Source: Comamonadaceae bacterium
GTDB lineage: Bacteria > Pseudomonadota > Gammaproteobacteria > Burkholderiales > Burkholderiaceae_C
DNA: 43,312 bases
Direction: 5' to 3'
Assembly (NCBI GenBank): GCA_008080595.1
Contig: VIKI01000066.1
Location: 1 to 43,312, forward strand
A program made the translations under genes and the position numbers. The notes under the pieces are model-generated. The model was not told the origin of the DNA and ran no database searches. It saw only the letters and a program-made list of their open reading frames with translations. Shown piece by piece: positions 5,274 to 42,416 of this stretch. How positions within the stretch are numbered: the first letter of the stretch is position 1; every line of letters starts with the position of its first letter.

Positions 5274-6065
5274 ATGCAGACCCGATTTATCCTGATCAAC
5301 ACCAGCCATGCTGGCAATGTAGGTGCGGCAGCACGTGCCATGAAAACCATGGGCTTTGATGACCTGGTGCTGGTGGCTCCGCGCTGGGCCAATGTGCTGA
5401 ACCGTGAAGAAACCATCCAGCGTGCCAGTGGGGCGCTGGATGTGCTGAAAAATGCCCGCATTGTGGACACATTGGACGAGGCGCTGGAGGGTATGACCCA
5501 TTTGTGTGCCACGGCCATGACCCCGCGTGACTTTGGGCCACCTACCACCACGCCGCGTAAGCACTTTGATATGCTCTTAAAAAAAGAGCTGCTTGCGCAT
5601 GATGGACAAGCGCTAGAGGCTGAAAATGCTTGTAATACTGGGGTGGCTTTCTTGTTTGGTTCTGAGCGCTTTGGCATGCGCAACGAAGATGTGTACCGCT
5701 GTCATGTGTGCCTGAGCATTCCCAGCAACCCCAAATTTGGTTCGCTCAATCTGGGGGCGGCCTTGCAGGTGATTGCCTATGACTGGCGCGAGGCGCTGGG
5801 CGCTTACCCGGTGCAGGCGGCGACCGATGCCCCGGTGCTGGCCGATGCAGCTCAGGTGTCAGGCATGCTGGCGCACCTGGAGCAGGCACTGACCCAGATT
5901 GGTTTTCTCGACCCGCAGTCGCCCAAAAAACTCATGCCGCGCTTGAACCAGTTGTTCAACCGGGCACAGCTCACCCAGGAGGAAATTCATATCCTGCGTG
6001 GCATGGCCAAAATGATGCTCAAACCACAGCCCCCGTCAGCATCAGGGGCGAGCTCCAAAGATTAG
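5274..6065 (+). CDS. trmJ: tRNA (cytidine/uridine-2'-O-)-methyltransferase TrmJ
   Basis: A SPOUT-class methyltransferase that uses S-adenosylmethionine to methylate the 2'-O of nucleotide 32 in tRNA anticodon loops. The protein begins [20 protein letters not shown], the typical family opening. It contains the knot motifs [14 protein letters not shown] and [23 protein letters not shown] chose the ATG at 5274 because the family starts there; 19 upstream in-frame codons look unconserved. Residues about 100–116 are encoded by a copy of the dispersed 49-nt repeat, giving an atypical stretch between [10 protein letters not shown] and VAFLFGSE. The cysE gene follows nine bases downstream. Divergent from suhB. 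Confidence 0.93.
5573..5621 (+). repeat. Dispersed 49-nt element, copy 1 (inside trmJ)
   Basis: Aligns without gaps to the copy at 37230. First stem GCTCT, 7-nt loop, AGAGC. Compared with GCTAT/ATAGC this is a paired (compensatory) change that keeps the stem. The second part reads GCGCAT, 7 nt, AAGCGC, then TAGAGGCT. It is read in frame as protein. Confidence 0.85.
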
Positions 6066-6074
6066 ACTTGCATC

Positions 6075-6848
6075 ATGTTTTCAAGAATCAAATCCGACGT
6101 TCAGTGCATCCTTGACCGCGACCCGGCGGCGCGCAGCACCTGGGAAGTGCTGACCTGTTACCCCGGCCTGCATGCGGTTATCCTGCACCGCGTGGCACAT
6201 GTGCTCTGGACGCATGGCTTCAAATGGCTGGGCCGTTACACCTCGCACATCGCGCGGTTTTTGACGGGTATTGAGATTCATCCGGGAGCCAAGATCGGCG
6301 AGCGGGTGTTTTTTGACCATGCCATGGGTGTGGTGGTGGGGGAGACCGCCGAAATCGGCGACGACTGCACCATTTACCAGGGCGTCACGCTCGGGGGCAC
6401 TTCGCTTTACAAAGGCACCAAGCGGCATCCCACGCTGGGGCGAGGTGTGGTGATTGGGGCTGGAGCGCAGGTGTTGGGCGGCTTTACCGTGGGTGACGGG
6501 GCCAAGGTGGGTTCCAACGCGGTGGTGACCAAACCCGTACCGGCCGGAGCCACTGCGGTGGGAAACCCGGCGCGCATCATTCAGGCCGAGCAAGATGTCA
6601 AACGTGAAGAAGTGGCCGCCAAAATGGGCTTTTCAGCCTACGGCGTGACGCAAAACGACGACCCGCTGAGTCAGGCCTTGCGTGGCCTGATCGACAGTGC
6701 GGCGGGGCAGGAACATCAGATTGCCATGATCTGGAAGGCCATCGAACAGCTCAATTGCCCGCGCCAGGTGGCCTCCATCGTGCCAGCGGATGCCGCCAAA
6801 CAAGAGCATTTTGAGGCGGACAAGCTCAACCAACTGGTAGGGAAGTAA
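6075..6848 (+). CDS. cysE: Serine O-acetyltransferase
   Basis: Transfers acetyl from acetyl-CoA to L-serine, the first committed step of cysteine synthesis. It has 257 residues, normal for the family. The N-terminal helical part (about 1–70) is followed by left-handed beta-helix hexapeptide repeats (about 70–170). These contain [19 protein letters not shown] with the catalytic Asp/His pair, GVTLGGTS and [20 protein letters not shown]. The C-terminal tail is variable, and in the family this region carries feedback control by cysteine. It starts nine bases after trmJ and is followed after three bases by a periplasmic-protein gene, so the three are probably one transcript. Confidence 0.95.
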
Positions 6849-6851
6849 GGC

Positions 6852-7619
6852 ATGTCATTGGTTCGCTGGATGCGTTTGTGGGTTGTGGGCTGTGTTTTGT
6901 TGGCCAGTTTGGGGTGTCGTGTAGCCTTGGCGGCTGAGCCTGCTCCTTTTGTTTTTGGTGCCAATGGGGTACCCCAGGCGTTTGGCGTGCGTTGGGGTAC
7001 CTTGATCCTCTCGGAAGCCTTTCGTCGTTTGGGGATTCCGATGCAGATCACCCATTACCCCATGGCGCGTTATTCGGCCTTGCTTGATTCGGGCGAGATT
7101 GATGGTGATCCTGCGCGCATTTACGACTATGGTGCAGCCCATCCGAATTTGATCCGGGTGGAGGAGTCCATCATTGACATGGGTTTTGTGCTGTATGCGG
7201 CCAAGCCAACGATCCAGCTTCAAAGCCTGGAAAATTTACGCGGAACAAACTGGGTTGTGGAGTACCAGAGGGGCGTACTGCTTTGTGAAAACAAGCTCAA
7301 GGCCTTGGTTCCAGAAGGTCAGCTTGACAGCATTTCCAGCGGTGAGCAGGGTTTGAGGAAGCTGCTGGCGGGGCGCACTGATGTGTATTGTGATCTTGAG
7401 ACCTCAATGCGTCGCTACCTCAATAGCCCCGAATTCAAGGACAACATGCGCCTGCACAAAGTGCTTCATCTGGCCACCTTGCCAACTTACACTTACCTGC
7501 ATCGCAAACATGCAGCCTTGGCGCCACGTCTGGCTGCCACATTAAAACAAATGAAGGCCGAGGGTCTGGTTGAGGCCTACCGTGTACAGGTTGAAAAAGA
7601 ATTGAAGTGGACGCGTTGA
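6852..7619 (+). CDS. Periplasmic solute-binding protein, SBP_bac_3-like
   Basis: 255 residues with an N-terminal signal peptide ending around VALA/AEP (residue 27). The body has the look of a family 3 extracellular solute-binding protein: FVFGANGVPQAFGVRWG opens the first lobe, then MARYSALLDSGEIDGDPARIYDY and GLRKLLAGRTDVYCDLE. No permease or ATPase gene lies next to it, so it may be an orphan binding or sensory protein rather than part of a transporter. Its start is three bases after the cysE stop, suggesting co-transcription, but a link to cysteine metabolism is only positional. The ligand is unknown. Confidence 0.75.
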   Translation: MSLVRWMRLWVVGCVLLASLGCRVALAAEPAPFVFGANGVPQAFGVRWGTLILSEAFRRLGIPMQITHYPMARYSALLDSGEIDGDPARIYDYGAAHPNLIRVEESIIDMGFVLYAAKPTIQLQSLENLRGTNWVVEYQRGVLLCENKLKALVPEGQLDSISSGEQGLRKLLAGRTDVYCDLETSMRRYLNSPEFKDNMRLHKVLHLATLPTYTYLHRKHAALAPRLAATLKQMKAEGLVEAYRVQVEKELKWTR

Positions 7620-7634
7620 GTTCACACAAGGGAA

Positions 7635-8237: not shown

Positions 8238-8239
8238 GG

Positions 8240-8893: not shown

Positions 8894-8915
8894 AGCCAAG
8901 TATCATAGCCGCGCT

Positions 8916-10343: not shown

Positions 10344-10366
10344 AGGCCGCTCAAACACCCAAGGAC

Positions 10367-11725
10367 ATGACCATGGCTCATTTTTTTCGTCGACTTGTGT
10401 CCAAGATGTTGGGCCAATCCACTTTGCAGCCTGAGGTGGCGGCCTATCTGCAGGGCAGCACCGCTGCGCCAGACCAGTTGCCAGAGGCCGAGAAAGATGC
10501 CGTGATTCAGGCACTGGGACCACGGCGGCCTTTGATTGCCGCAGATGGCAGCATTGCGGGCTTTGAATTTTGCATTGACAGCGCTGTGCTCGCACGTTTG
10601 GTGCAACGCCCAGATCACCGTGGCTGGTCGGCTCAAGTGGCCAGGGTGTTGACATCGGCGCGGCTGACGGCTCATACCGGGCGTGTCGGCTTTGCCCGCT
10701 TGCCGATGAACTGGTTGGTGTATGCCGTAGAAGCAGACCTTTGTCCAGGTGTCTGGATTGGTCTGGATCCCACCGTGGGTGAGCCTGATCAATTTGTGTT
10801 GTCGCCTGAAGTGACATATGCGGTGAAGACCTTGCGTGCAAGTGGGGTGCAAGTGGGCTGGGATATGTCGGTGATGTCTCTTGTGCGTCGTGATTTTTTG
10901 TTGCTGCATCAGGGGCAGCAACCGATCGGGCAACTGCTGAAAGGTCGTTCCAGTTGGCCTGGTGAACTGCGCAGACTTGACATACTGATGACGGATATCG
11001 GCAGTCTGGAAAACCTGGAAATGGCGTTGGAACAGGGGGTCAAGTTTGCTTGCGGAGCCCTGGCTCCAATGGCGGGCAGCCCCGACCATGAGGTGCGTGA
11101 GTTTTTACCTGTTCCGCCCGAAATGCAGCGTGTGGCTGTGTTGCTCAATCAATTGGTGACGGGCACGGAGACGGGGGCCATCGTGAGCAGCATCAAGGGT
11201 GATGTGGGTATATCGCTGCGTTTGCTCAAACGCATCAACAATGCCAGTTATGCCCAACTGATGCCGGACTCAGACATTGAGCATGCGGTGATGTTGTTGG
11301 GGCGCAATGAGTTGTACCGCTGGTTGTCCATGCTGCTGGTGCAGTTTGCCGGGCATCGCAAGGCATCTTCTGCGTTACAGGAAATCACCCTGTGGCGCGC
11401 ACGTTTGCTGGAGTTGCTGGCGCTTGAGTGCCATGAAGACAAGCCTGGACAATTTTTCACGTTGGGGCTGGCTTCCATGCTGAGCGTGCTGCTGAAAATC
11501 AGCCCGCAGGATGTGGTGACCATGCTGAATCTCCCAGAGCCGGCGCGTCTTGCCCTGCTGGAGCAAACCGGCCCGTGGGCAGACTATCTGCGAATTCTTG
11601 AACGGGTTGAACGCCAGCAGCTTGAAGACTCTGATGCGCCTGTATCCCGCTGGGGTGATGCCACCCAGGTGTTGGCACTCTCCGATCAAGCCTGGGCTTG
11701 GGCGAGTGCCCAAAATAAAAGTTAA
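10367..11725 (+). CDS. HDOD-domain signalling protein with degenerate EAL-like N-terminal part
   Basis: 452 residues. The N-terminal half (about 50–230) has the layout of an EAL phosphodiesterase domain (opening PLIAADGSIAGFEFCID, ending EQGVKFACGALA), but the catalytic Glu-x-Leu and metal residues are missing, so it should not cut cyclic-di-GMP. The C-terminal half (about 250–400) is an HDOD domain: ILLKRINNASY-like KRINNASYAQLMPDSDIEHA and AVMLLGRNELYRWLSML. This two-part architecture occurs in YuxH-like proteins. It follows pmbA by 23 bases with a purine-rich AAGG before the ATG. It converges on the aap operon over a hairpin. Role unknown; signalling is inferred from the domains. Confidence 0.8.
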   Translation: MTMAHFFRRLVSKMLGQSTLQPEVAAYLQGSTAAPDQLPEAEKDAVIQALGPRRPLIAADGSIAGFEFCIDSAVLARLVQRPDHRGWSAQVARVLTSARLTAHTGRVGFARLPMNWLVYAVEADLCPGVWIGLDPTVGEPDQFVLSPEVTYAVKTLRASGVQVGWDMSVMSLVRRDFLLLHQGQQPIGQLLKGRSSWPGELRRLDILMTDIGSLENLEMALEQGVKFACGALAPMAGSPDHEVREFLPVPPEMQRVAVLLNQLVTGTETGAIVSSIKGDVGISLRLLKRINNASYAQLMPDSDIEHAVMLLGRNELYRWLSMLLVQFAGHRKASSALQEITLWRARLLELLALECHEDKPGQFFTLGLASMLSVLLKISPQDVVTMLNLPEPARLALLEQTGPWADYLRILERVERQQLEDSDAPVSRWGDATQVLALSDQAWAWASAQNKS

Positions 11726-11728
11726 TAA

Positions 11729-11777
11729 TGCCTCTGGCGCTTGATGGTATTGCCTAAGCAGCTATTTTTTGTATAGC
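11729..11777 (-). repeat. Dispersed 49-nt element, copy 2 (between HDOD gene and aapP)
   Basis: Intergenic copy on the minus strand. First stem GCTAT, 7-nt loop ACAAAAA, ATAGC, then TGCTT; it ends AAGCGCCAGAGGCA. Together with flanking bases it makes the long hairpin described as the terminator below. Confidence 0.8.
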
Positions 11778-11785
11778 TACTTAGG
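11753..11785. terminator. Hairpin between convergent genes, possible bidirectional terminator
   Basis: Arms at 11753–11765 and 11773–11785 pair over 13 bases with one mismatch around a T-rich loop. It lies between the stops of the HDOD gene (rightward) and aapP (leftward). No strong U-tract follows on either side, so termination is an inference from position. Confidence 0.45.
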
Positions 11786-16089: not shown

Positions 16090-16449
16090 ATTTTCGACTC
16101 CAGTTGATAAAAGTAAAAGAGAAAATTCTAATGTTGATGGGACAAACGACAGAATCAACAAGATTGGCACTGTAACAGTGCGAAACAGTGCCTATCCTAC
16201 GGGTTTACGCTTGCGTTATATGCAATTTGCGCATAACCTCATTCGAGCCACTTACGTTGAAATTACAAGCAGTTATCGTGCCATGGTTACTCAACATGCG
16301 GCAACATGAGCCCCTTTTGCCGGTTTGGACTCAAGAGGTCGTCGAGATCGCTGGATGCATGCGCTACCATGCTGATGTGGTTTATAAAATCAATGATTAT
16401 TTTTGCCTCTAAGGCAATAGATGCAAGTACTTAAAGCTATCAATTTGAT
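16090..16449. other. 360-bp divergent intergenic region, aapJ / serine hydrolase
   Basis: Holds the control region of the aap operon (leftward) and of the hydrolase gene (rightward). I see the palindrome at 16167–16181 and the dispersed element at its right edge. Leftward, TTGATT with AACATT 17 bases on is a weak candidate promoter for aapJ. No sigma-54 (GG-N10-GC) promoter was found by eye. No small gene is convincing. Confidence 0.5.
16167..16181. promoter_or_regulatory. NtrC-like palindrome upstream of aapJ
   Basis: GCACT-GTAAC-AGTGC, a perfect 15-bp palindrome (7-bp arms around one base), matching the NtrC half-site pattern GCACY-N5-RGTGC. It lies 78 bases before the aapJ start. A further ACAGTGCC at 16185–16192 can pair with GGCACTGT at 16166–16173. 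Aap uptake systems are nitrogen-controlled in rhizobia, so an NtrC site is plausible, but with no sigma-54 promoter seen it may belong to another regulator. Confidence 0.4.
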
Positions 16450-16452
16450 ATG
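16404..16452 (-). repeat. Dispersed 49-nt element, copy 3 (before serine hydrolase)
   Basis: Diverged minus-strand copy: CATAT, 7-nt loop, ATAGC, then a weak second part ending TTAGAGGCA. Its outer end contains the ATG of the downstream hydrolase gene (16450). Confidence 0.55.
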
Positions 16453-17640
16453 ACTCTTGAACAAATCAACCCGGAAAAAGTGGGCCTGTGTCCACAGCGT
16501 ATGCAGCGGTTAATGGATGTATTACAAGCAGAGGTAGATAAAAAACGACTACCTGGAGCGGTGGCTGTGGTGGCACGCCATGGGCAATTGGCTTTGTTTG
16601 AGAGCGTAGGTCAGCTCAATCCTGCCACCGGCACAACCATGATGCATGATGCCCGTTTTCGGATTTATTCAATGACCAAGCCGATTGTTTCGGTGGCGGC
16701 CATGATGTTGATGGAAGAGGGGCAACTGCTGCTGGCTGACCCGGTGTCACGCTACTTGCCCGAATTTGGTGCGCAACAAGTCGCTACTTTGGTGGATGGA
16801 GCACTTCAAATGAGGAGCGTTAGCCAACCCGCCACACTGCATGATTTGTTACGCCATACCGCAGGCATGACGTATGAATTTCTTGGCTCGACCCCGGTGC
16901 AGCGTCAATACACACAACTGCGCCTGGGTTCGCGGGAGCGGAGCTTGGCTGACTTTACCCAGCAATTGGCGAGCTTGCCGTTGATCTTTGAGCCAGGCAG
17001 CGCTTTTGAATACAGTCGCGCCACCGACGTGCTGGGGCGGGTCATTGAAGTGGTTTCTGGGCAGAGTCTGGAAAGTTTCCTGCAAGAGCGAATTCTCGAG
17101 CCATTGGGTATGCGGCACACGGCTTTTCATGTAGCTGAGCAACACCATGAATGGATTGCCGAGCCTTTTGCACGGGATCCTGATGGTGGGGTTCAAATGC
17201 GCGTGATGGATGTGCGCACTCAGGCTGCAATGGCTTCCGGGGGAGGCGGGTTGACCTCTACCGCCATGGATTACGCCCGGTTTTTGCAGTTCATGCTCAA
17301 CCGTGGCGAGTTGGGTGGGGTGCGTCTGCTGGGGGCGCGAACCGTTGACTTCATGACCACCGACCATTTGGGTGAACTGGCAGTGTTCAGCCCTGGCTCG
17401 CGTTCGTTGTTGCCTGCCGGGCACGGTTTTGGCTTGGGTTTTGCGGTGCGTAAACACTTGGGTGTGGCCACAGTGCCTGGTTCAGCAGGAACTTATTTTT
17501 GGGCTGGTTTGGCGGGCACCACTTTTTTTGTTGATCCTGCACTGGATCTGTTTGGCATTTTGATGCTGCAAGCACCCAATCAGCGCGAGTATTACCGCAT
17601 GTTATTTCGCAATATGGTGTATGCAGCGGTGTTGGAATGA
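16450..17640 (+). CDS. Beta-lactamase-fold serine hydrolase (EstB-like esterase)
   Basis: 396 residues of the class C beta-lactamase/penicillin-binding-protein-like family. Nucleophile motif SMTK at 74–77 (SxxK), tyrosine motif Y188-S-R in FEYSRATDVLGRVIE, and C-terminal GHGFGLGFAV. No signal peptide, so it is likely cytoplasmic, which fits esterases such as EstB better than a resistance beta-lactamase. The active site of such enzymes cleaves esters or amides; the substrate is unknown. Start ATG lies at the end of a repeat copy, with no clear ribosome site in front of it. Stands alone between the aap promoter region and a lipoprotein gene. Confidence 0.85.
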   Translation: MTLEQINPEKVGLCPQRMQRLMDVLQAEVDKKRLPGAVAVVARHGQLALFESVGQLNPATGTTMMHDARFRIYSMTKPIVSVAAMMLMEEGQLLLADPVSRYLPEFGAQQVATLVDGALQMRSVSQPATLHDLLRHTAGMTYEFLGSTPVQRQYTQLRLGSRERSLADFTQQLASLPLIFEPGSAFEYSRATDVLGRVIEVVSGQSLESFLQERILEPLGMRHTAFHVAEQHHEWIAEPFARDPDGGVQMRVMDVRTQAAMASGGGGLTSTAMDYARFLQFMLNRGELGGVRLLGARTVDFMTTDHLGELAVFSPGSRSLLPAGHGFGLGFAVRKHLGVATVPGSAGTYFWAGLAGTTFFVDPALDLFGILMLQAPNQREYYRMLFRNMVYAAVLE

Positions 17641-18188: not shown

Positions 18189-19163
18189 ATGCTTAAACCT
18201 GCTGTTTTGGTGGCCCGTGCCATCTTTCCCGAGGTGTTGCAGACATTGCAACAACATTTTGAGGTGACTGACAACCAAGCTGATGTGCTATTTGATAAAG
18301 AGCAATTAGCGCTTTCTGCAAAAGGTGTTGATGGCATTTTGACCACAGGCAGTGAGCGTGTTGATGCGGCTTTGTTGGCTGCTTGCCCGGGGCTGAAAAT
18401 TTGCGCCAACATGGCGGTGGGCTACAACAACTTTGACCTGGCTGCCATGACAAGCGCCGGGGTGCTGGCCACCAATACGCCAGATGTGCTGACTGAAACC
18501 ACCGCTGATTTTGGCTTTGCCCTGATTCTGGCGACCGCCCGGCGCATGGCTGAAGGCGAGCATTTTTTACGTGCAGGTCTGTGGAATCGCTGGCGCTATG
18601 ACATGTTTGCCGGGGCTGAGGTGCACGGCAGCACCTTGGGCATTTTGGGCATGGGGCGAATCGGCCAGGCCGTTGCCAGGCGTGGTGCACACGGTTTTGG
18701 CATGCGGGTGATCTACCACAACCGTTCCCGTCTGGATGCAGCCACCGAGGCCAGTTGCGCTGCCCGTTTTGTGAGCAAACAGGATTTGTTGCAGCAGGCA
18801 GATCATCTGATTCTGGTTTTGCCGTACACCGCCGAATCCCATCATGCCATTGGCGCATCAGAACTGGCGCAAATGAAGCCGACAGCGACCTTGGTGAACA
18901 TTGCCCGAGGCGGAATTGTGGATGACGCTGCCTTGGCCGCAGCGCTCAAGGCCGGAGCGCTGGCCGCCGCGGGCCTGGATGTGTTTGAGGGCGAGCCACG
19001 TGTTCATCCCGACTTGTTGGCCTTGTCCAATGTGGTGCTGACACCGCACATTGCCAGTGCCACCATTCAGACCCGCCGGGCCATGGCGCAGTTGGCGGCA
19101 GACAATCTGATTGGTTTTTTGCTGCATGGCAAAGCGCTGACACCTTTGAATGGGTTGCGGTGA
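18189..19163 (+). CDS. D-2-hydroxyacid dehydrogenase (glyoxylate/hydroxypyruvate reductase type)
   Basis: 324 residues of the NAD(P)-dependent D-isomer 2-hydroxyacid dehydrogenase family. Nucleotide-binding GILGMGRIGQ (GxGxxG at 154–159), catalytic Arg239 in NIARGGIVDD, Glu268 in DVFEGEP and His286 in LTPHIAS. Sequence style is nearest to glyoxylate/hydroxypyruvate reductase B, reducing glyoxylate or hydroxypyruvate, but the substrate cannot be fixed by eye. Preceded by a terminator and a purine-rich GGAG before the ATG, so it has its own promoter. The segment LFDKEQLALSAKG resembles the dispersed element only weakly. Confidence 0.9.
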   Translation: MLKPAVLVARAIFPEVLQTLQQHFEVTDNQADVLFDKEQLALSAKGVDGILTTGSERVDAALLAACPGLKICANMAVGYNNFDLAAMTSAGVLATNTPDVLTETTADFGFALILATARRMAEGEHFLRAGLWNRWRYDMFAGAEVHGSTLGILGMGRIGQAVARRGAHGFGMRVIYHNRSRLDAATEASCAARFVSKQDLLQQADHLILVLPYTAESHHAIGASELAQMKPTATLVNIARGGIVDDAALAAALKAGALAAAGLDVFEGEPRVHPDLLALSNVVLTPHIASATIQTRRAMAQLAADNLIGFLLHGKALTPLNGLR

Positions 19164-21996: not shown

Positions 21997-23130
21997 TTAA
22001 TGGTTTTTTGTGATGAATCGGATCAGCTGGGTCACCAAGTCATCTTGGGCCAGCAAACGGGTCTTGGCAAGAGCTGCGCAGATCGACCATTCCTGGGGCA
22101 AAAAATCGGGCTGGCTGGATCGGTTGGCGGCTGGGGCGATGCCATTCCAATGACGGTGAAACTGGCGCAGGCTGGCGGGGGCTTCGAGCCAGTCCAGAAA
22201 GGCCTTGAGTTTCGCTACATGGGCCGCATCGTCTTGCGGGTAAATGTGCCACACCAGTGGTTTACCAGCCCACAAGGCCCGCACCAGTGAGTCTTCACCC
22301 CGCACAAAATTCACATCACTGGCCCATAACAGGTGGTCATAGTCAGTTTGTGAAAGCTGGGGAAGATATAAAAATGAGAGCTTCTTGTGCTTGTTCCATA
22401 AGGGGTTTAGCCTTGTTTTGCATGAAATTTCGGCATCCAGCGCGGCCCTGGCGCGGCCTGGGGTCACCAGCAGGCAAGTCGGTTGTGAGTCCTGGGCCAA
22501 GGCCTCCAGCCAATCGCCCAAACCGGCGGGCTCGTAACAGAACAGGGAGACCAGGCGTTCGCCTTGCCAATTCAGCCCTTGCTGCTTCAGCCAAGCTGGC
22601 CGATCAAAGCGCGCCTGGCGGTCCAGCAGGTCGGTTTCGCGCAGCAAGCCGCCCGTGCCCTCGGTCAAACCGGGGTAGAAAAAATGCTTGGTCAAACCTT
22701 TGCCGGGCCCGCTCATGACCGGAGACGGCAGGCCATGGCTGCGCAGCACATAGGTTTCGGCGCTCAGGTATTCCAGGTTGATCCATCTGCATTTTTGGCA
22801 AGACCCCAAGTCCAGGCCTCTAGCGCTTATATGGTATGCGTAGGATGCTATGAAATTTGCATCAATCTCACAACCAAAGGCCTCCACCATGACATCACCA
22901 GGGGTGATCTGGGCCAGGTCAAGCGGGTTTGTCCAACGCTTGACCTCCACACCCGTCGAATCCTCGGGGGCCATCCAGGCCAAGGCGGTAGAGTCATCCA
23001 CCCACAAACGCACGCTTTGACCGCGCTGCGCCAGCTGACAGGCCAGTCGCCAGCACACACCGATGTCGCCAAAGTTGTCAATCACCCGGCAAAAAATGTC
23101 CCAGCGCAAAAGTGGTGTTTCTGAATACAT
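21997..23130 (-). CDS. earP: EF-P arginine rhamnosyltransferase
   Basis: Inverting glycosyltransferase that attaches rhamnose from dTDP-rhamnose to Arg32 of EF-P. 377 residues. N-terminal [21 protein letters not shown] holds the Asp pair (D18 and D22 in this numbering) needed for catalysis; the C-terminal domain has [20 protein letters not shown] with the Glu needed for nucleotide-sugar binding. I chose ATG at 23130 over a GTG five codons upstream. It carries two copies of the dispersed repeat in opposite orientation (residues about 90–106 and 240–256), both read through without a stop. It is upstream of efp with 90 bases between, and divergent from uvrC. Confidence 0.93.
22365..22413 (+). 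repeat. Dispersed 49-nt element, copy 4 (inside earP, antisense to it)
   Basis: GATAT, 7-nt loop AAAAATG, AGAGC, TTCTT, GTGCTT, 7 nt, AAGGGG, TTTAGCCT. The gene reads the opposite strand, giving residues around [12 protein letters not shown]. Confidence 0.7.
22815..22863 (-). repeat. Dispersed 49-nt element, copy 5 (inside earP, sense)
   Basis: The 3' half is identical to the 37230 copy from AT AAGCGC through TAGAGGCC; the first stem is decayed (GATGC/ATAGC). Encodes residues around [15 protein letters not shown]. Confidence 0.75.
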
Positions 23131-23156: not shown

Positions 23157-25244
23157 ATGTCTGAATCTCATCCAAGCAACCAACCCGCAGAACCTCCCGG
23201 AAAAACGCACGCTGAACAGGTGCTCAGCGATGTGGCCAGTTTGCCTGCCTTGCCCGGGGTGTACCGCTACTTTGATGCCCAGGGCAATGTGCTCTATGTG
23301 GGCAAAGCCATCAATTTGAAAAAGCGGGTGTCGAGCTATTTCACAAAAAACCACGGTGGCACACGCATTGGCCACATGGTGAGCAAAATCGCCCGGCTGG
23401 AGACCACGGTGGTGCGTTCGGAAGCCGAGGCCTTGCTGCTGGAAAACAACCTGATCAAAACGCTCAACCCGAAGTACAACATCCTGTTTCGGGACGACAA
23501 AAGCTACCCGTATTTGAAAATCAGTGCACCAGCGCCTTTGCCTGATGCTATAAAAAACAGAGCTGCATGCGATTTGTCTGTAAGCGCTACAGGTCAAAAA
23601 GATTCGCAAATTGCCAGTTTGAAAGCCAACCCGGACTGGTTCCCCCGAGTGTCTTATTACCGCGGTGCGGTGGAGAAAAAACACCATTACTTCGGCCCCT
23701 ATCCCAGTGCCTGGGCGGTCAAAGAGGCGATTTTGCTGATGCAAAAAGTCTTCCGGCTGCGCACCTGTGAAGACTCGGTGTTTGCCAACCGCACCCGGCC
23801 CTGTTTGCTGTACCAGATCAAACGCTGTTCCGGGCCTTGCGTGGGGCATATCGCTGCGCAGGCCTACGCGCAGGACATGATGGATGCCGAGCGGTTTTTG
23901 AATGGCGATGCGCGTGAGGTCATGGCCGAGCTGGAAGCCCGCATGATGGCCCATGCCGACAAGCTGGAGTTTGAACAGGCGGCCGAGTTGCGTAACCAAG
24001 TGGCTGCGCTCTCAAACGTGCTGCACCAGCAGTCGGTCGACAACGTGTCGGATCGGGACGTGGACATTCTGGCCGTGAAAGTGCAGGGTGGCCGTGCCTG
24101 TGTCAACCTGGCCATGGTGCGCGGCGGGCGGCATCTGGGGGACAGGCCGTACTTTCCGGTGCATGTGGAAGATGCGGCGGATCTGGACGATGCCGATGAA
24201 ACCGATGCGCCCAGCGCCGTGCGCAGCGTCGAGATGCAGGTCTTGGATGCCTTCATTGCCCAGCATTACCTGAACGTGCCTGCGCCGCCCTCGCTGGTGG
24301 TCAGCGTGCCGGTCGACAAGGGCTTGCTACAGGCCTTGTCTGAGCAAACCGGTGTCAAGGTGGGTGCGGTGCACAACCCGCGTGAGCAGCGCCGGGTCTG
24401 GCTGGAAATGGCGCAGACCAATGCAGGGTTGCAACTGGCCAGGCTGCTGGCCGAAGAGGGTTCGCAGCAGGCGCGTACCCGGGCACTGGTGGAGGCGCTG
24501 GATTTGGCGTTGGACGATCTGGAGGAATTGCGGGTCGAGTGTTTTGACATCTCACACACCTCGGGCGAATCCACCCAGGCCTCGTGTGTGGTGTTTCACC
24601 ATCACAAAATGCAGAACGCCGAATACCGGCGTTACAAAATCAATGACATCACGCCCGGTGATGATTACGCCGCCATGCGCCAGGTGCTGTTGCGCCGCTA
24701 CGGCAAGCTGGCCGAAGTGCTGGCACAAGCCAAACAAACCGGTGAAACCCCGGCAGGCACGGGCCGTTTGCCGGATCTGGTGCTGGTCGACGGTGGCAAG
24801 GGTCAGGTGGCGATGGCGCGTGAGGTGTTTGAGCAGCTGGGCCTGGACTTGTCGCTGATTGTGGGCGTGGAAAAAGGCGAGGGCCGACGCATTGGTCTGG
24901 AAGAACTGGTGTTTGCCGATGTTGGTCTGGAAGAACTGGTGTTTGCCGATGGTCGCGACAAGGTTTATTTGGGCAAGGATTCGGCGGCCTTGATGCTGGT
25001 GGCCCAGATTCGCGATGAGGCGCACCGCTTTGCCATCACCGGCATGCGGGCCGCCCGCGCCAAGGTGCGGATGGATGGCGGCAAGCTCGAAGAAATTCCC
25101 GGTATTGGCCCCAAACGTCGCGCCCGTTTGTTGCAGCGTTTTGGTGGCGTGCGTGGTGTGGCGCTGGCTTCGGAAGCAGACATTGCGCAGGTGGAAGGAA
25201 TTTCACACGAGTTGGCACAGGAAATTTACCGCGCATTGCATTGA
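23157..25244 (+). CDS. uvrC: Excinuclease ABC subunit C
   Basis: Makes both incisions in nucleotide excision repair. 695 residues. GIY-YIG nuclease domain at the N-terminus ([27 protein letters not shown]), cysteine cluster [20 protein letters not shown] helix [19 protein letters not shown], RNase H-like domain ([28 protein letters not shown]) and C-terminal helix-hairpin-helix ([18 protein letters not shown]). Two oddities. Residues about 131–147 come from a copy of the dispersed repeat within a larger insertion between YPYLKISA and [10 protein letters not shown] 30-bp exact tandem duplication doubles [11 protein letters not shown]. Start ATG at 23157, 26 bases from the earP start. The reading frame stays open throughout. 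Confidence 0.95.
23547..23595 (+). repeat. Dispersed 49-nt element, copy 6 (inside uvrC)
   Basis: GCTAT, loop AAAAAAC, AGAGC, TGCAT, GCGATT, TGTCTGT, AAGCGC, TACAGGTC. Translated as part of UvrC ([17 protein letters not shown]). Confidence 0.8.
24892..24951 (+). repeat. Exact 30-bp tandem duplication in uvrC
   Basis: Units 24892–24921 and 24922–24951 are identical. The repeat adds ten residues in frame within the RNase H-like nuclease domain. Homologues have this block once, so it is a recent duplication or a sequence artefact. Confidence 0.95.
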
Positions 25245-30138: not shown

Positions 30139-31653
30139 TTAACGTTTGCCGCCAAAAATTCCGCCCAGTACGCCCCGGATGATTTGGCGGCCGACTTCGC
30201 GACCAATCGAGCTGGCGGCACTTTTAAGCAGTTGTTCGCCCGCAGAGGCGCGTCGTCCACCACCACCGCCCAAGAGACTGCCCAGACCAGAGCCCAAGCT
30301 GTCCAGCAAACCGCTGCCAGTGCTCTGGGCTTGCGTGGTATTGCCCTGTGCCGATTCGGTGGCTTGGGTGCGTTCAACGGTGCGGCCTTTGAGTTTCTCG
30401 AAAGCGGATTCGCGATCCAGGGCTTTTTCATAGACTCCGGCGACGATGGATTCAGCCAGCAAGCTTTGTCGTTGCGCGGGCGTGATTGGGCCAATCTGGC
30501 TGGACGGCGGCAACACGTAGACCCGCTCGGTGGGGCAGGGGCGGCCTTTCTCGTCCAGGAAACTGATCAGCGCCTCCCCCACGCCCAGTTCGGTGATGGC
30601 CGCACTCAGATCCAGCGGTGGGTTGGGTCGCATGGTGTCGGCGGCAGCTTTCACAGCTTTCTGGTCACGCGGGGTGAAGGCACGCAGGGCATGTTGCACC
30701 CGGTTGCCCAGTTGGGCCAGCACGCTGTCGGGGATGTCCAGCGGGTTTTGTGTCACAAAGTACACGCCGACACCCTTGGAGCGCACCAGCCGCACCACCA
30801 GCTCAATCCGCTCGACCAGCACCTTGGGCGCATCGGCAAACAGCAAATGGGCTTCGTCAAAGAAAAATACCAGTTTGGGTTTGTCCAGGTCGCCCACTTC
30901 GGGCAGATTTTCAAACAGTTCGCTCAGCAGCCACAGCAAAAAGGTGCTGTACAGGCGCGGCGAATTCATCAGTTTGTCGGCTGCCAGCACGTTGACCACA
31001 CCGCGCCCGGCGCTGTCGGTTTGCATCAGGTCGTCGATGTTGAGCATCGGCTCGCCAAAGAACTTGTCACCGCCTTGTTGTTCGATTTGCATCAGCCCGC
31101 GCTGGATGGCACCAATGCTGGCGGCGCTGATGTTGCCGTACTCGGTGGTGTAGCTGCTGGCGTTGTCGCCCACATGCTGACACATGGCGCGCAGGTCTTT
31201 CATGTCCAGAATCATCAGGCCATCGTCATCGGCAATTTTGAACACCAGTTGCAGCACGCCTGCCTGGGTCTCGTTCAGGTTCAGCATGCGCGCCAGCAGC
31301 AAGGGCCCCAAATCGCTCACGGTGGCCCGCACCGGATGCCCTTGTTCGCCAAAGACATCCCAAAGGGTGATGGGGAAGGCTATAAATTCAGGAGCTACTA
31401 GCGCGCGTTCTTCAAGCACTTTAGCCAGTTTTTGCGTAGCAGTGCCAGCTTGCGAGATACCTGTCAGATCGCCCTTGATGTCGGCCATGAACACGGGCAC
31501 ACCCAGGCGTGAGAAACCCTCGGCCATGGTTTGTAAGGTAATGGTTTTGCCTGTGCCGGTGGCCCCGGTGATGAGACCGTGCCGGTTGGCTTTGTCGGGG
31601 TGCAGTCGGCACTGAGTCTGGCCATGCTGGGCAATCAGGATGGGTTCTGGCAT
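30139..31653 (-). CDS. HerA-like ATPase, DUF853 family
   Basis: 504 residues. Walker A GATGTGKT near residue 30, Walker [13 protein letters not shown] near 270, and the DUF853 helicase HerA-like C-terminal region with [30 protein letters not shown]. The N-terminal [24 protein letters not shown] is the usual opening. A glycine-rich linker ([10 protein letters not shown]) precedes a C-terminal helix ending in [13 protein letters not shown]. Function is poorly known; the FtsK/HerA fold suggests DNA translocation. ATG at 31653, with GGAG seven bases upstream, is chosen over a TTG. Residues about 76–92 are encoded by a copy of the dispersed repeat. The gene is divergent from yebC, 58 bases away. 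Confidence 0.87.
31379..31427 (+). repeat. Dispersed 49-nt element, copy 7 (inside DUF853 gene, antisense to it)
   Basis: GCTAT, loop AAATTCA, GGAGC, TACTA, GCGCGC, 7 nt, AAGCAC, TTTAGCCA. The gene reads the other strand ([16 protein letters not shown]). Confidence 0.7.
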
Positions 31654-34664: not shown

Positions 34665-35278
34665 TGCCCGTAGTGGAAAAAAAAAGACGCATCGGACTCT
34701 TTGGCGGGGCTTTTGACCCGCCCCATCTGGCGCATGAGGCCCTGGTGAAAACAGCGATTTCAGAGCTGGCCCTGGATCGCTTGCTCGTGGTTCCCACTGG
34801 GCGGGCTTGGCACAAACCCCGCGAATTGACACCAGCGGTGCATCGGCTGGCCATGACTCAACTGGCCTTTGCGCATTGCCCCCAGGTGACGGTAGATGCC
34901 CAGGAAATTGAACGCAGTGGACCAAGCTACACCATTGATACCTTGCGTGTGGTCGCCGCGTCTGAACCTGATGCCCAATTGTTTCTGATCATGGGCGGCG
35001 ACCAGGCCAATACCTTGACAACTTGGCATGATTGGCAGGAGATTTTGCAACTTGCTACAATATGTGTAGCTTTTCGTGCAGATTCAACAAAGGGTAGCAC
35101 CCTGTTTGAATCAGAAAAAATGGTTTCACAGCGGTTTATACAGCTGAACATGCCTGCCATGCCGCTGAGTGCCACCCAGATTCGCGCATCCCTTTCAGCC
35201 GGACAAACCGCAAATACGCTGGTGTCTGAAGCCGTTGCACGTTATATTGCCGACCACCACCTTTACCAATCGAATTGA
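34664..35278 (+). CDS. nadD: Nicotinate-nucleotide adenylyltransferase
   Basis: Makes deamido-NAD from nicotinate mononucleotide and ATP. 204 residues. N-terminal RIGLFGGAFDPPHLAHEAL holds the nucleotidyltransferase motif GxFDPxHxxH; FLIMGGDQ and the C-terminal SATQIRASL are also family motifs. ATG at 34664, one base overlap with the hemF stop. Residues about 131–147 (ATICVAFRADSTKGST) come from a diverged repeat copy. Its TGA overlaps the rsfS ATG in the same TGATG way. Confidence 0.95.
   Translation: MPVVEKKRRIGLFGGAFDPPHLAHEALVKTAISELALDRLLVVPTGRAWHKPRELTPAVHRLAMTQLAFAHCPQVTVDAQEIERSGPSYTIDTLRVVAASEPDAQLFLIMGGDQANTLTTWHDWQEILQLATICVAFRADSTKGSTLFESEKMVSQRFIQLNMPAMPLSATQIRASLSAGQTANTLVSEAVARYIADHHLYQSN
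35054..35102 (+). repeat. Dispersed 49-nt element, copy 8 (inside nadD)
   Basis: GCTAC, 7-nt loop AATATGT, GTAGC: both arms differ from GCTAT/ATAGC yet still pair fully. The second part is strongly diverged. Confidence 0.6.
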
Positions 35279-37218: not shown

Positions 37219-37229
37219 GTCAGCATTTT

Positions 37230-37278
37230 GCTATTATTTGTATAGCTGCTTGCGCTTGATTTATAAGCGCTAGAGGCC
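37230..37278 (+). repeat. Dispersed 49-nt element, copy 9 (maf–rng gap; best copy)
   Basis: Complete two-hairpin form. GCTAT-TATTTGT-ATAGC, then TGCTT, GCGCTT-GATTTAT-AAGCGC, and TAGAGGCC. Used as reference. Its end is 18 bases from the rng ATG and could influence that gene's mRNA leader. Confidence 0.9.
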
Positions 37279-37296
37279 AATTTATCATATAAAAAT

Positions 37297-38772: not shown

Positions 38773-38784
38773 GGCAGGGTACTG

Positions 38785-39534
38785 ATGCGCCAAGACGTTT
38801 GTAGCAACGCCCAGCCGATTCCGATTCTGGTCTACCACCAGATTGAGATTGCACCACCCAAGGGGGCTGCGTTCAGGAGTCTCTATGTGTCGCCGCAGGC
38901 CTTTGCCCGGCAAATGCGCATGCTGGCCTGGCTGGGTTACCAGGGTTTGTCGATGACGGCTTTGCTGCCGTATTTGCGTGGTGAGAAAATCGGCAAGGTG
39001 GTTGGCATCACCTTTGATGATGGTTACCTGAACAATTTGACGCATGCGCTGCCGGTGTTGCAGCGGCATGGGTTTTCTTCCACCTGCTACTGCGTCAGCC
39101 AACGGCTCGGGCAAACCAATGCCTGGGATGCCGCGCAAGGCATTGCCCAAACCGCACTGATGGATGCCGCCCAGTTGCGCCAATGGGTGGCTGGCGGGCA
39201 AGAGGTGGGGGCACACACCCGCCACCATGTGAACCTGAGCGTTTGTACGTCTGCCGTGGCAGAGGAAGAAATTTCACTCTCAAAAACAGAGCTGTCTGCG
39301 CTTATTCCACAAGCGGTAGAGCACTTTTGTTACCCCTATGGTCAGTACCAGCCGGAGCATCTGCAGATGGCCAGGCAAGCTGGTTTTCAGACCGTGACCA
39401 CCACCCAGCGCAGCCGGGTCTGCCGTGGAGCTGATCTGTGGCAATTGCCACGGGTGCCAGTGTTGCGCTCGACCACGTTGCCGCTGTTCTGGCTCAAACT
39501 GGCCACGCGTTATGAAGATCGGCGCAGTGTATGA
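38785..39534 (+). CDS. Polysaccharide deacetylase (NodB-fold)
   Basis: 249 residues, no signal peptide. NodB homology: VVGITFDDGYLNN is the catalytic/metal motif (Asp-Asp), QEVGAHTRHHVNLS the second metal site (His-x3-His type), and HFCYPYGQYQP the third. It removes acetyl groups from sugar chains; position next to glycosyltransferase, MsbA-like and ligase-like genes suggests a role on lipid A/LPS core or O-antigen sugars. Starts 13 bases after rng. Stop overlaps the next ATG as ATGA. Residues about 164–180 coincide with a copy of the dispersed repeat, yet the length fits relatives. Confidence 0.85.
   Translation: MRQDVCSNAQPIPILVYHQIEIAPPKGAAFRSLYVSPQAFARQMRMLAWLGYQGLSMTALLPYLRGEKIGKVVGITFDDGYLNNLTHALPVLQRHGFSSTCYCVSQRLGQTNAWDAAQGIAQTALMDAAQLRQWVAGGQEVGAHTRHHVNLSVCTSAVAEEEISLSKTELSALIPQAVEHFCYPYGQYQPEHLQMARQAGFQTVTTTQRSRVCRGADLWQLPRVPVLRSTTLPLFWLKLATRYEDRRSV
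39276..39324 (+). repeat. Dispersed 49-nt element, copy 10 (inside deacetylase gene)
   Basis: ACTCT, loop CAAAAAC, AGAGC, TGTCT, GCGCTT, ATTCCAC, AAGCGG, TAGAGCAC. Both hairpins are largely kept. Encodes LSKTELSALIPQAVEH. Confidence 0.75.
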
Positions 39535-40694
39535 GTGCGCCGCTGCCACGCTTGCGCATTGCGGTGCTGAATCGCCAGTTTTCGTCCACCGGCGGTGGGG
39601 CTGAGCGCTATTCGATTGCCTTGGTCGAGCAGTTGGCGGAGCAGCATGAGATCCATGTGTTTGCCCAGCACATTGAGCACCACTGGCCGGGGGTGACTTA
39701 CCACCGGGTGTCGCAACCCTTGACGCGGCCACGCTGGATCAACCAGCTGTGGTACGCCACGGCCACCTGGTGGGCAACACGCCGGGGTTTTGACGTGGTG
39801 CATTCGCATGAGAACACCTGGCACGGCAACGTGCAGACGGTGCATGTGCTGCCGATCAAATACAACTTGTTGCAGGGTTTGACCGGCTGGCGACTGGCCT
39901 TGCGATGGCTGAAGATCGTCACCAGCCCGCGCCTGCTGGTGTATCTGGCGTTGGAGCGCAGCCGCTTTGCCCTGCGCCACCCTCGTGCGATTGTGCTGGC
40001 CTCACAGGCGCTGGTGCCGCAGATGTTGCAGGCCTACCCGGCCAGCCAGGCGGCCTTTCAGGTGCTGACACCGGGGGTGGAGCGCGTGGAAGGCGTTGCC
40101 ACGGCCACAGAAAAATCGCAGGCCAGAGCACAACTTGGTTTGCCCTTGGCGGGTTTTGGCATTCTGTTTGTTGGCAATGACTATCGCAAAAAGGGCTTGA
40201 GCACGCTGATTCAAGCCTTGTCACGGTTGCCGCCGTCCTGCTTTGTGGCGGTGGTGGGCAACCCGGCGCAAGTGCCGCAGTTCAAGGCGCAGGCGGCAGC
40301 GGCAGGTGTGGCGCAGCGGGTGCATTTTCTGGGCTCCTTGGCCAATGTGGCTCCGGCTTACCAGGCCGCAGATTGTCTGGCGCACCCGACGCTGGAAGAC
40401 ACCTTCGCCATGGTGGTGCTGGAAGCCATGGCGTATGGTTTGCCGGTGCTGGTGAGCTCGGCCAAATTCTGCGGCGTTGCGGGCTTGTTGCAGCCGGGGC
40501 GTGACGCGCTGGTGCTGGATGATCCGCAGGATGCCCAGGCTTTGGCTGGGGCAATCGCACAGATCATTCAACAACCGGCCCGCGTGGCGGCTTTGCAAGC
40601 CGCTGGCCTGCGTTTTGCCCAGGCGCATCTGTGGTCTGAACTGGCCCGGCAGCAGGCCTTGATTTACCAGCAGCTGGTCTCCAGACTTAGATAA
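39531..40694 (+). CDS. Glycosyltransferase family 4
   Basis: 387 residues, GT-B fold. N-terminal RIAVLNRQFSSTGGGAERYSIAL has the GGGAER-type acceptor motif; C-terminal FVGNDYRKKGLSTLIQAL, HPTLEDTFAMVVLEAMAYGLPVLVS is the nucleotide-sugar E-x7-E motif. Likely adds a sugar to LPS core or a related glycan at the cytoplasmic face. ATGA overlap with the deacetylase gene, so the two are co-translated. Donor and acceptor are unknown. Confidence 0.9.
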   Translation: MSAPLPRLRIAVLNRQFSSTGGGAERYSIALVEQLAEQHEIHVFAQHIEHHWPGVTYHRVSQPLTRPRWINQLWYATATWWATRRGFDVVHSHENTWHGNVQTVHVLPIKYNLLQGLTGWRLALRWLKIVTSPRLLVYLALERSRFALRHPRAIVLASQALVPQMLQAYPASQAAFQVLTPGVERVEGVATATEKSQARAQLGLPLAGFGILFVGNDYRKKGLSTLIQALSRLPPSCFVAVVGNPAQVPQFKAQAAAAGVAQRVHFLGSLANVAPAYQAADCLAHPTLEDTFAMVVLEAMAYGLPVLVSSAKFCGVAGLLQPGRDALVLDDPQDAQALAGAIAQIIQQPARVAALQAAGLRFAQAHLWSELARQQALIYQQLVSRLR

Positions 40695-40700
40695 GAAATA

Positions 40701-40749
40701 GGCCTATAGCGCTTATGTAAACTGCGCAAGCAGCTATCAATTTTATACT
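40701..40749 (-). repeat. Dispersed 49-nt element, copy 11 (at the msbA 3' end)
   Basis: Near-complete minus-strand copy: AGTAT, 7-nt loop, ATAGC, TGCTT, GCGCAG, TTTACAT, AAGCGC, TATAGGCC. The TAA stop of the msbA-like gene lies inside it (40743–40745), so the element supplies the end of that gene. It lies between two convergent genes. Confidence 0.85.
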
Positions 40750-42416
40750 GCGTCGTGCAAACCCAAGCGGTAGAGCCGGGCATACAGGCCATCGTGCTGG
40801 ATCAGCTCCGCATGGTTGCCCATTTCAGCAATGCGGCCATGATCCAGCACCACAATGCGGTCGGCATGGTGCACGGTGGACAAGCGGTGGGCAATCACCA
40901 GCGTGGTGCGGTTGATCATCAGCCGATCCAGCGCTTCTTGCACACTGCGCTCGGACTCGGTGTCCAGCGCCGAGGTGGCTTCGTCCAGAATCAGAATCGG
41001 TGCATCTTTGTACAAGGCGCGGGCAATCGCCAGGCGCTGGCGCTGCCCCCCTGAGAGCTGGGTGGCGTTGTGTTTGTCCAGCGGCAGCCCCAGGGCCACA
41101 TTGGCGGCAATGCTGTCGTTGATCATCACCACCTGTTGGCTGACCAATGAGAACTGCGCCCGCAAGGCGGGTAGTTGCCATTCGCGTAACTCATGGCCGT
41201 CCAGCGTGACCTGACCGGAGCCAATGTCGACAAACCGGGTCAGCACATTGATCAACGTGGTTTTGCCGGAGCCCGAGGCGCCCACCAGGGCCACTGTTTC
41301 GCCGGGGTGAATGGTCAAGGCATCAATGGCCAAAGCCGGGTTTTGCGCAGATGGGTATTGCACAAGCAGCTTTGAAAATGAGAGCAAACCGGCGGCGCGT
41401 GCCGTGGCAAAGTGGCCGCTGGACTCATCGGGTGTGTGCTCAATCAGGGCCAGAGCCCGCTCCAGCGAGACCAGACCCCGGGTGATCGGGCTGGAGAGTT
41501 CGGAGAGTTGCCGCACCGGCGCAATGATCATCAGCATGGCGGTGACAAAGGCCACAAAACCGCCGACCGAGGTGCCGCTGCTGGCGCTTTGCACCAGGGC
41601 CACCGAAATCACCGCCGACAGTGCTACCGCCGCCAGCATTTGGGTCATGGGGGTCATGGCCGCCCCCGCCACGGTGGATTTCATGGCCAGGTGGCGCAGC
41701 GATTCGCTCAGGCGTTCAAAACGCTCGGCTTGTGTCGCCTGGGCGGCGTAGAGGCGAATGTCGCGGTGGGCCAACACGTTTTCTTCGACCACGTAGGCCA
41801 GCTCGTCGGTGGCTTCCTGGTTGGCCTGGGTGAGTTTGTGCACGCGCCGAGTCAGCACTTTCATGACCCAGGCCACTGCGGGGAAGATGGCTGCGACGAT
41901 CAGGGTGAGCTTCCAGTTCAGGTAAAAAAGATAGGCGGTCAAGGCCAGCAAGGTCAGGCCGTTGCGGGTCAGGCTCAGCATGGCATTGACCAGCATGCTG
42001 GCCCCGGTTTGCACTTCATACACCACGGTGTTGGACAGGGCGCTGGAGCTTTGTTGTGCAAACAGCCGCAGTTCGGCGGCCAGAATTTTGGCAAACATGG
42101 CTTGGCGCATCAGTTGCAAGCCATGTTGGGTGATGCGGGTCAGGCCGATTTGCGACAGGTAGCCGGCCAGGCCGCGCACCCCAAACAAGAGCAGGAGCGA
42201 GGCGGGAACCTCCCAGATTTCAATTTCACCCCGCTGAAAACCGCGATCCAGCAGCGGTTTGAGTAGGGCCGGGATCATCGGTTCGGTGGCTGCACCCACC
42301 ACAGCACTCAGGGCCACCATCAGCCAGATGGCTGGCAAGGTGCCAAAGTAAGGGGTGAAGCGGCGGATGCGTTGCAGCACGCTGCGGGAGGGGGCGGACA
42401 AATCTTCGATGCTCAC
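40743..42416 (-). CDS. msbA: MsbA-type lipid A/polysaccharide ABC exporter
   Basis: About 557 residues, a half-transporter with six membrane helices (about 25–300) and an ATPase. ATPase motifs: GASGSGKTT Walker A, LSGGQRQRLAIARAL signature, ILILDEATSALD Walker B. In E. coli MsbA flips lipid A-core across the inner membrane. Start is uncertain. I choose GTG at 42416, which forms a GTGA overlap with the ligase-like gene stop; an ATG at 42455 (MVVNHLSP) would overlap that gene by 43 bases. The last residues HDAV come from a repeat copy. Residues about 344–360 come from another. Confidence 0.88.
   Translation of the reverse strand: MSIEDLSAPSRSVLQRIRRFTPYFGTLPAIWLMVALSAVVGAATEPMIPALLKPLLDRGFQRGEIEIWEVPASLLLLFGVRGLAGYLSQIGLTRITQHGLQLMRQAMFAKILAAELRLFAQQSSSALSNTVVYEVQTGASMLVNAMLSLTRNGLTLLALTAYLFYLNWKLTLIVAAIFPAVAWVMKVLTRRVHKLTQANQEATDELAYVVEENVLAHRDIRLYAAQATQAERFERLSESLRHLAMKSTVAGAAMTPMTQMLAAVALSAVISVALVQSASSGTSVGGFVAFVTAMLMIIAPVRQLSELSSPITRGLVSLERALALIEHTPDESSGHFATARAAGLLSFSKLLVQYPSAQNPALAIDALTIHPGETVALVGASGSGKTTLINVLTRFVDIGSGQVTLDGHELREWQLPALRAQFSLVSQQVVMINDSIAANVALGLPLDKHNATQLSGGQRQRLAIARALYKDAPILILDEATSALDTESERSVQEALDRLMINRTTLVIAHRLSTVHHADRIVVLDHGRIAEMGNHAELIQHDGLYARLYRLGLHDAV
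41337..41385 (-). repeat. Dispersed 49-nt element, copy 12 (inside msbA, sense)
   Basis: GCTCT, loop CATTTTC, AAAGC, TGCTT, GTGCAA, TACCCAT, CTGCGC, then no tail. The first half fits well, the second weakly. Encodes LLSFSKLLVQYPSAQNP. Confidence 0.5.

Follow-up and report, generated by a model that had tools for sequence, protein, structure and literature searches.

A repeated DNA element of about 66 bp in the Comamonadaceae that may act like an uptake signal

The element in the window and its copy number

The 43,312 nt contig VIKI01000066.1 of a Comamonadaceae bacterium (GenBank assembly GCA_008080595.1), called the window here over its full length, carries open reading frames (ORFs) for a TrmJ-like SpoU methylase, a 2-hydroxyacid dehydrogenase, EarP, UvrC, a HerA-like helicase, a NadD-like protein, a polysaccharide deacetylase and an ABC transporter. 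Within these ORFs, and in intergenic DNA, the window was found to hold thirteen copies of a repeated element of about 66 bp (Table 1). An initial annotation of the sequence had listed about twelve copies on both strands; all 12 were recovered at the same coordinates and strands, and a thirteenth, at 18287, was added. The density of 13 per 43 kb is mildly above that in the sample of a related species described below (456 in 2.08 Mb).

Table 1 Copies of the element in the window. Spans are the 72-nt extents of the matrix, and bits are scores of the matrix built from G010 copies alone.
Feature	Span	Strand	Context	Bits	Remark
Copy 5573	5568..5639	+	in TrmJ-like SpoU methylase ORF	69.7	
Copy 11729	11711..11782	-	intergenic	59.8	
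Copy 16404	16386..16457	-	intergenic	31.8	
Copy 18287	18282..18353	+	in 2-hydroxyacid dehydrogenase ORF	31.0	13th copy, new with respect to the earlier list
Copy 22365	22360..22431	+	antisense in earP ORF	52.7	
Copy 22815	22797..22868	-	in earP ORF	32.3	
18-nt unit	22797..22814	-	TGGACTTGGGGTCTTGCC directly after TAGAGGCC		not at this place in G010
Copy 23547	23542..23613	+	in uvrC ORF	50.7	orthologous copy in G010 66.9 bits
Copy 31379	31374..31445	+	antisense in HerA-like helicase ORF	39.3	12 aligned relatives gap-free
Copy 35054	35049..35120	+	in nadD-like ORF	43.1	
Copy 37230	37225..37296	+	intergenic	83.4	strongest copy
Copy 39276	39271..39342	+	in polysaccharide deacetylase ORF	37.5	
Copy 40701	40683..40754	-	overlaps 3' end of ABC transporter ORF	64.1	
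Copy 41337	41319..41390	-	inside the ABC transporter ORF that copy 40701 overlaps	27.3	

Copies were collected with a 72-column position weight matrix (PWM) that was seeded with 37 copies from the window's own genome (G000, 322 contigs totalling 5.42 Mb, with a completeness of 89%) and then iterated over 2.52 Mb, namely 0.44 Mb of G000 and 2.08 Mb of G010, a related species represented by a single contig. This gave 562 raw matches of at least 10 bits and, after removal of overlaps, 532 copies (76 in G000, 456 in G010), against 1 in a Markov-shuffled copy of the same DNA. The reversed PWM had 2 raw matches of at least 10 bits and 0 of at least 12, and PWMs with block-shuffled columns (mean of 12) had 13.0, 5.9 and 1.25 matches at thresholds of 10, 15 and 25 bits, respectively. 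A second PWM, made from G010 copies alone (themselves originally retrieved with the G000-seeded matrix), scored the 13 window copies at 27.3-83.4 bits. Apart from these, just three window matches reached 5 bits, all of them echoes of listed copies on the other strand (6.7-8.2); reversed or complemented, the same matrix scored at best 2.7 over the whole window.

An excess over shuffled sequence, the check proposed in the initial annotation, was also evident with a 35-base consensus: 10 window sites agreed at 24 or more of the 35 bases, and 40 dinucleotide shuffles gave 0.00 such sites per shuffle, the best reaching 23. Across G000, 299 sites match the core with no more than 3 mismatches, and the backward pattern has 0. 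In E. coli K-12 (two stretches of 50 kb, 100 kb in all) no match reached 10 bits, and the best scored 6.9. When synonymous codons were shuffled, the in-gene matches of at least 10 bits fell from 209 to 44 and those of at least 20 bits from 185 to 13; thus, most of the in-gene signal is a nucleotide word and not a consequence of protein sequence, while the matches left after block and codon shuffling indicate that a small part of the weakest in-gene matches may be due to chance. The element family is real in the window and in the genome, and both sampled species seem to have roughly 1,000 copies per genome.

Anatomy, placement and conservation of the copies

Counted from the reported start of a copy, the informative positions span about -4 to +66 and carry 51 bits in total, so that the unit measures about 66-70 nt and the 49 nt first assigned to it were too few. 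Its constant length, also proposed at first, was confirmed, in that 144 of the 150 listed G010 matches of a covariance model (built from a gapless alignment; the 150 are those scored among 2298 first-look candidates) are exactly 72 positions long. A/T tracts occur near -3..0, 7-11, 51-54 and 61-65 around the core AGCTGCTTGCGC..AAGCGCTAGAGGC. In a few copies an 18-nt unit close to TGGACTTGGGGTYTTNCC is located at the 3' end of the element (window 22797-22814; loci L072 at 3189 and 9842, L074 at 708 and L154 at 3422), and once it is apparently doubled there in tandem.

The consensus holds two palindromes, and the initial annotation had drawn the element as two hairpins, the 7-nt first loop of which corresponds to one of the A/T tracts. 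This structure was not upheld by covariation. In 514 copies of at least 15 bits from G000 and G010, gathered with a matrix that has no pair terms and therefore under-samples compensated variants, the excess of arm pairing over independent columns did not exceed 4 percentage points for any arm pair; the pair 4-14 was complementary in 62.5% of copies versus 58.6% under independence, and most other pairs had about zero excess. Likewise, 76.9% of the cells paired in an alignment of 37 copies versus 76.7% after shuffling. The strongest couplings were those of adjacent or near-adjacent bases (36-37, 52-53, 27-28, 53-54), A/T tracts among them, with ATTT, AAAA and TTTT frequent at 51-54. A GCCC..GGGC variant in the genome G023 looks compensatory, yet G030 has the mismatched intermediate, and hairpin covariation was discarded. 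An Rfam search of the window returned 4 matches, none of them at a copy. The scarcity of arm covariation, the coupling of neighbouring bases and the A/T tracts point to recognition of duplex DNA and not to folding of a strand; we read the element as a double-stranded DNA signal, for which a function in RNA is unlikely.

With ORFs taken from a home-made gene finder, 252 of the 532 copies are intergenic, 209 lie wholly in predicted ORFs (88 in sense and 121 in antisense orientation) and 71 partially so, where random positions would yield 12% intergenic, 81% in-ORF and 7% partial. Copies of at least 60 bits are mostly intergenic, those below 45 bits mostly genic. Among the intergenic copies 58 lie between convergent and 30 between divergent genes, and every orientation is represented. 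With even sampling the G010 copies are distributed as 219 on the + and 237 on the - strand, and a strong replication-strand bias was discarded; in the two halves of G010 that meet at the GC-skew turn near 2.5 Mb the counts for all copies are 96/123 and 123/114 (p 0.09). Their spread seems slightly more even than at random, with a variance/mean of 0.92 per 4 kb (matches within 40 nt merged). Density is 1.3 per 10 kb in the 16 G010 loci of lowest GC versus 2.2-2.3 in the remaining loci.

The window and G010 align collinearly, with an identity of about 80-88%. Each of the 29 G000 copies that an alignment covers scored as a copy in G010 as well (at least 13 bits), a comparison that concerns two species and favours alignable places. 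In the reverse direction 29 of 31 were shared, and both misses were weak, one of them overlapping a copy on the opposite strand. When unaligned gaps are counted, 30 of the 76 G000 copies are spanned, 5 fall in gaps and 41 are without orthologous context in the sample; the unaligned G010 gap that matches copy 16404 also holds a copy, with a best score of 36.1. Three of the five G000 copies in gaps (locus L050 at 5828, 6057 and 6193) share one 590-nt gap whose G010 counterpart has 163 nt and at least one copy, and this was the clearest difference in copy number found between the two species, the G010 side being judged by best score only.

Across the 26 usable G000-G010 pairs (out of 76 G000 copies), consensus positions of high information diverge by 6.1% (35/575), compared with 15.2% in the flanks and 25-27% at positions of low information, which supports a constant layout due to selection or drive; the initial annotation had pointed to selection or a common insertion mechanism. 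Where a high-information position departs from the consensus, 27 of 40 changes go toward it. Among 438 G010 copies, every pair agrees at fewer than 60 of the 72 bases; similar pairs nonetheless exceed a Markov simulation (at least 55/72: 37 versus 0.4 for all copies, 35 versus 8 for strong ones). Low divergence at consensus positions, change toward the consensus and the lack of near-identical copies would be expected of maintained sites and not of decaying transposon fossils, and selection or molecular drive seems to preserve the copies where they are.

Copies lying in genes were compared with homologues from a partner set of 127 loci (1.10 Mb), 115 of which had each been chosen for carrying a copy (80 with names), the other 12 being stretches from the genus. 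Homologues were available for 32 of the 209 in-gene copies, giving 101 pairs, in which orthologues of G000 and G010 are counted twice: 48 with the motif in the homologue, 51 without it (24 copies) and 2 in between. Net length was unchanged in 36 of the 51 motif-less pairs. For copies below 50 bits this applied to 35 of 43 such pairs, 13 of 17 copies having a partner of equal length, so that a weak copy can arise in situ within older protein-coding DNA. Copy 39276, for example, has motif-less homologues of equal length in 4 relatives, whereas the L072 homologue is 2 aa longer.

Homologues in the PDB gave a mixed picture. The region of copy 18287 is gap-free in both alignments shown (chains annotated as glyoxylate reductases), that of copy 22365 is gap-free against two EarP chains, one labelled P. 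aeruginosa (net zero against 5nv8), and that of copy 35054 is gap-free in two of the three alignments shown, with extra length at this place in the third chain. The TrmJ-like ORF has at copy 5573 14 additional residues with respect to chain 4cnd and 11 with respect to 3kty, and at copy 22815, the second in earP, the EarP chains are about 10 residues shorter, 6 of these corresponding to the 18-nt unit. As for intergenic DNA, the spacer of copy 37230 is short in 7 of 10 aligned relatives, and the element or part of it is present in G010, G023 and G005.

Distribution in the Comamonadaceae

With at most 3 mismatches the motif was found in 19 of the 60 genomes of the set of relatives (own genome included), all of the same genus. 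A degenerate core with 2 mismatches had at least one site in 74 of 299 genomes of the family, belonging to 42 of 135 genera, and at least 5 sites in about 47 genomes, while the backward pattern had a single match in each of five genomes. A scan of named genomes gave at least 115 loci with the motif, 80 of them listed with labels. The genera among the listed loci are Acidovorax, Rhodoferax, Simplicispira, Giesbergeria, Polaromonas, Comamonas, Curvibacter, Diaphorobacter, Extensimonas, Ottowia, Paracidovorax and Paenacidovorax; another 14 of the 80 bear labels of higher rank only, four of them 'Gammaproteobacteria bacterium'. Thus, every listed carrier with a genus name belongs to the Comamonadaceae, the family with which the initial annotation had associated the element. 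A locus of Acidovorax temperans DSM 7270 holds two copies. The window itself probably comes from Rhodoferax or a genus close to it.

The consensus is nearly unchanged across the 80 named loci, outer A/T tract included. Lineages differ in dialect (GCGC..GCGC versus GCCC..GGGC), and genus mates have dialects and weak sites at shared positions, as at the nadD site. Counts with the strict pattern, which misses dialects, range from 0 to 299 among congeners. No description of the element or of an uptake sequence of the Comamonadaceae was found in the titles and abstract openings, mostly those of the 20 best-ranked papers, listed by searches of the open-licence literature.

Interpretation of the element

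The reading preferred here, to which we give about an even chance, is that of a double-stranded recognition signal of about 66 bp, present genome-wide, kept by selection or drive and most likely akin to an uptake signal. That it works like an uptake signal, which is not a claim that it is one, could equally go either way; recognition by the uptake machinery is what we infer. In this view, some component of the type IV pilus/competence machinery, on the surface or in the periplasm, would prefer DNA with the motif, fragments with better matches would be taken up more frequently and then recombine with their homologous counterparts, and sites would drift to the consensus and be refreshed at the same loci, in genes wherever the protein tolerates it.

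Traits of uptake words that the element displays are extreme over-representation, occurrence on both strands and in genic as well as intergenic DNA and, for alignable places in two species, conservation in place with changes toward the consensus. Published traits of the uptake signal sequence (USS) and the DNA uptake sequence (DUS) largely match those of the element, as far as the available portions of PMC7811141, PMC1939737 and PMC2397512 go; all papers are cited here to that extent. Like the Haemophilus USS, the element has very many copies, on both strands and often in ORFs, with A/T tracts beside a core and conservation in place (PMC7811141, PMC1939737). As with the Neisseria DUS and its dialects, distribution is wide, with lineage variants and conserved sites (PMC2397512, PMC3630211). 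Regarding hosts, the available text of PMC4212676 describes transformation with signs of sequence specificity in Verminephrobacter and Acidovorax temperans and names no uptake sequence. In Verminephrobacter the process is reported to depend on pili and to be inhibited by foreign DNA to a limited degree, and A. temperans to be transformed by its own DNA only.

Genes of the putative machinery were sought in the genus. PilP was found in 23 of 24 genomes, G000 and motif-poor genomes included. Most ComEA matches fall in long frames of about 750-880 aa, and matches in short frames are confined to G010, G013, G015 and G023. ComEC has a match in 35 of 36 genomes, the sole miss being G000, whose assembly, 89% complete, may have a gap there. 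In acquired DNA, besides the lower density in low-GC loci of G010, the exact motif was matched in 1 viral contig, and 1 record of a phage collection matched. One IMG/VR viral contig (L031) has two copies, at 6973 and 7284; this contig may represent host DNA inside or next to a prophage.

Several observations weigh against an uptake-like signal. ComEC is no discriminator, as genomes poor in the motif have it too and no match was obtained in G000. At about 66 bp and 51 bits the element is far longer and richer than the known uptake words of 9-12 bp, the Haemophilus USS being a 9-bp core with A/T tracts and the DUS also much shorter, and it contains palindromes, which known uptake words are not, according to the portion available of PMC1939737. 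DNA of A. defluvii failed to transform A. temperans (PMC4212676, same extent), and the motif is present in a record that bears the name A. defluvii. Between the two GC-skew halves of G010, the copies of at least 50 bits differ mildly in orientation (56/85 versus 75/62, Fisher p 0.016), with no significant bias when intergenic, in-ORF and partial classes are separated; known uptake words are said, in the text available, to have no such bias between chromosome halves. Last, among in-gene copies of at least 50 bits only 1 of 8 motif-less pairs, and 1 of 7 copies, was equal in length, and in motif-less spacers the median deficit was 48.5 nt (24 pairs from 6 intergenic or partial copies; range -1010 to +70), most being about 48-70 nt shorter. 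Judged from these alignments, the difference looks like insertion or deletion, and the DNA under strong copies tends to be either an addition or a stretch that others have deleted. The USS is said to evolve by point mutation (PMC7811141, PMC1939737); a role for recombination in the evolution of uptake words has been argued (PMC2397512). The sequences of the Neisseria DUS are not known to be related to the element.

The added DNA would also be accounted for by a mobile repeat resembling repetitive extragenic palindromes (REP) or miniature inverted-repeat transposable elements, inserted long ago by a REP-associated tyrosine transposase (RAYT) or another transposase, now mostly immobile and partly exapted, a history that we consider rather improbable. 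In line with it are the greater length of most stretches with strong in-gene copies (7 of 8 pairs differ) and of spacers, the two palindromes and the excess of similar copy pairs over simulation. The likeness to REP and bacterial interspersed mosaic elements mobilized by RAYT extends to a short repeat in hundreds of copies and to a Y1_Tnp match in 35 of 36 genus genomes (exactly one in 24, two in G000). The relation between Y1_Tnp and motif counts is positive but weak and non-significant (Spearman rho 0.29, p 0.09). The two 3.3-kb Y1_Tnp loci of G000 hold one copy each and no flanking pair. REP are extragenic hairpins, while the element often lies in or partly in ORFs and has no clear compensatory change. 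The absence of near-identical copies, the occupation of the same loci in G000 and G010, the equal-length homologues of weak copies and change toward the consensus speak against mobility as well. For the present state of the element, then, movement by a linked tyrosine transposase, for which the initial annotation had suggested looking, finds no support.

A Y1_Tnp gene, RAYT-like by length, was observed 7-11 kb from pilP in 10 of 24 genus genomes, both motif-rich and motif-poor (G000 C231, G003 C24, G004 C45, G010 C1, G012 C74, G015 C401, G016 C22, G017 C307, G022 C167 and G023 C9); in the remaining 14 the two genes are mostly on separate contigs. The Betaproteobacterial repeat element (BRE), which is dispersed, has Comamonadaceae among its hosts and occurs partly in coding sequence, was considered and set aside by its description, not by sequence: it differs in layout, in size and in GC (75-91 bp and 69% in Bordetella), is tandem at some loci and reaches at most 29 copies per genome (PMC3110155, available portion).

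A site bound inside the cell by a chromosome-organising protein or one with genome-wide action, such as a nucleoid, segregation or repair factor, would suit the slightly even spread, the roughly symmetric architecture of A/T tracts, conservation in place and the mild replichore bias of strong copies. This, too, is improbable, as that bias is weak and the wide range of strict counts among congeners, even if dialects are missed, is unexpected for a housekeeping site; no intracellular factor is known to have a 66-bp, 51-bit site. A hairpin acting as RNA or single strand (terminator, mRNA stabiliser or attenuator), which the palindromes and the surplus of convergent intergenic positions might suggest, can practically be dismissed, given arms that hardly covary (in copies collected without pair terms), in-ORF copies on both strands, intergenic copies in all orientations and no Rfam match at the window copies.

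The motif may also serve as a tag of provenance. In a plasmid collection 1748 records matched, and among the matches listed 25 of 30 were one DUF1010 gene, flanked in class 1 integrons by dfrA12 and aadA2, which we take to be the cassette orfF/gcuF; a 39-nt stretch of the motif is present there at 87-90% identity (L295 3001-3039). This suggests that the DUF1010 cassette is of Comamonadaceae origin.

Only two families with a strong uptake preference for a short word are named in the available portion of PMC7811141. To return to the uptake-like signal, the Comamonadaceae might, on a tentative view to which we lean slightly less than to its alternatives, be a third family with a self-recognition uptake word after Pasteurellaceae and Neisseriaceae, here a far longer one of about 66 bp flanked by A/T tracts, and this word might be the missing specificity signal in transformation of Acidovorax temperans and Verminephrobacter. 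If true, a third family in environmental betaproteobacteria would offer an independent test of how uptake words arise and are recognised. Even if another protein recognises it, a word of 66 bp and 51 bits at about 1,000 sites, some of them over old coding sequence, needs explaining.

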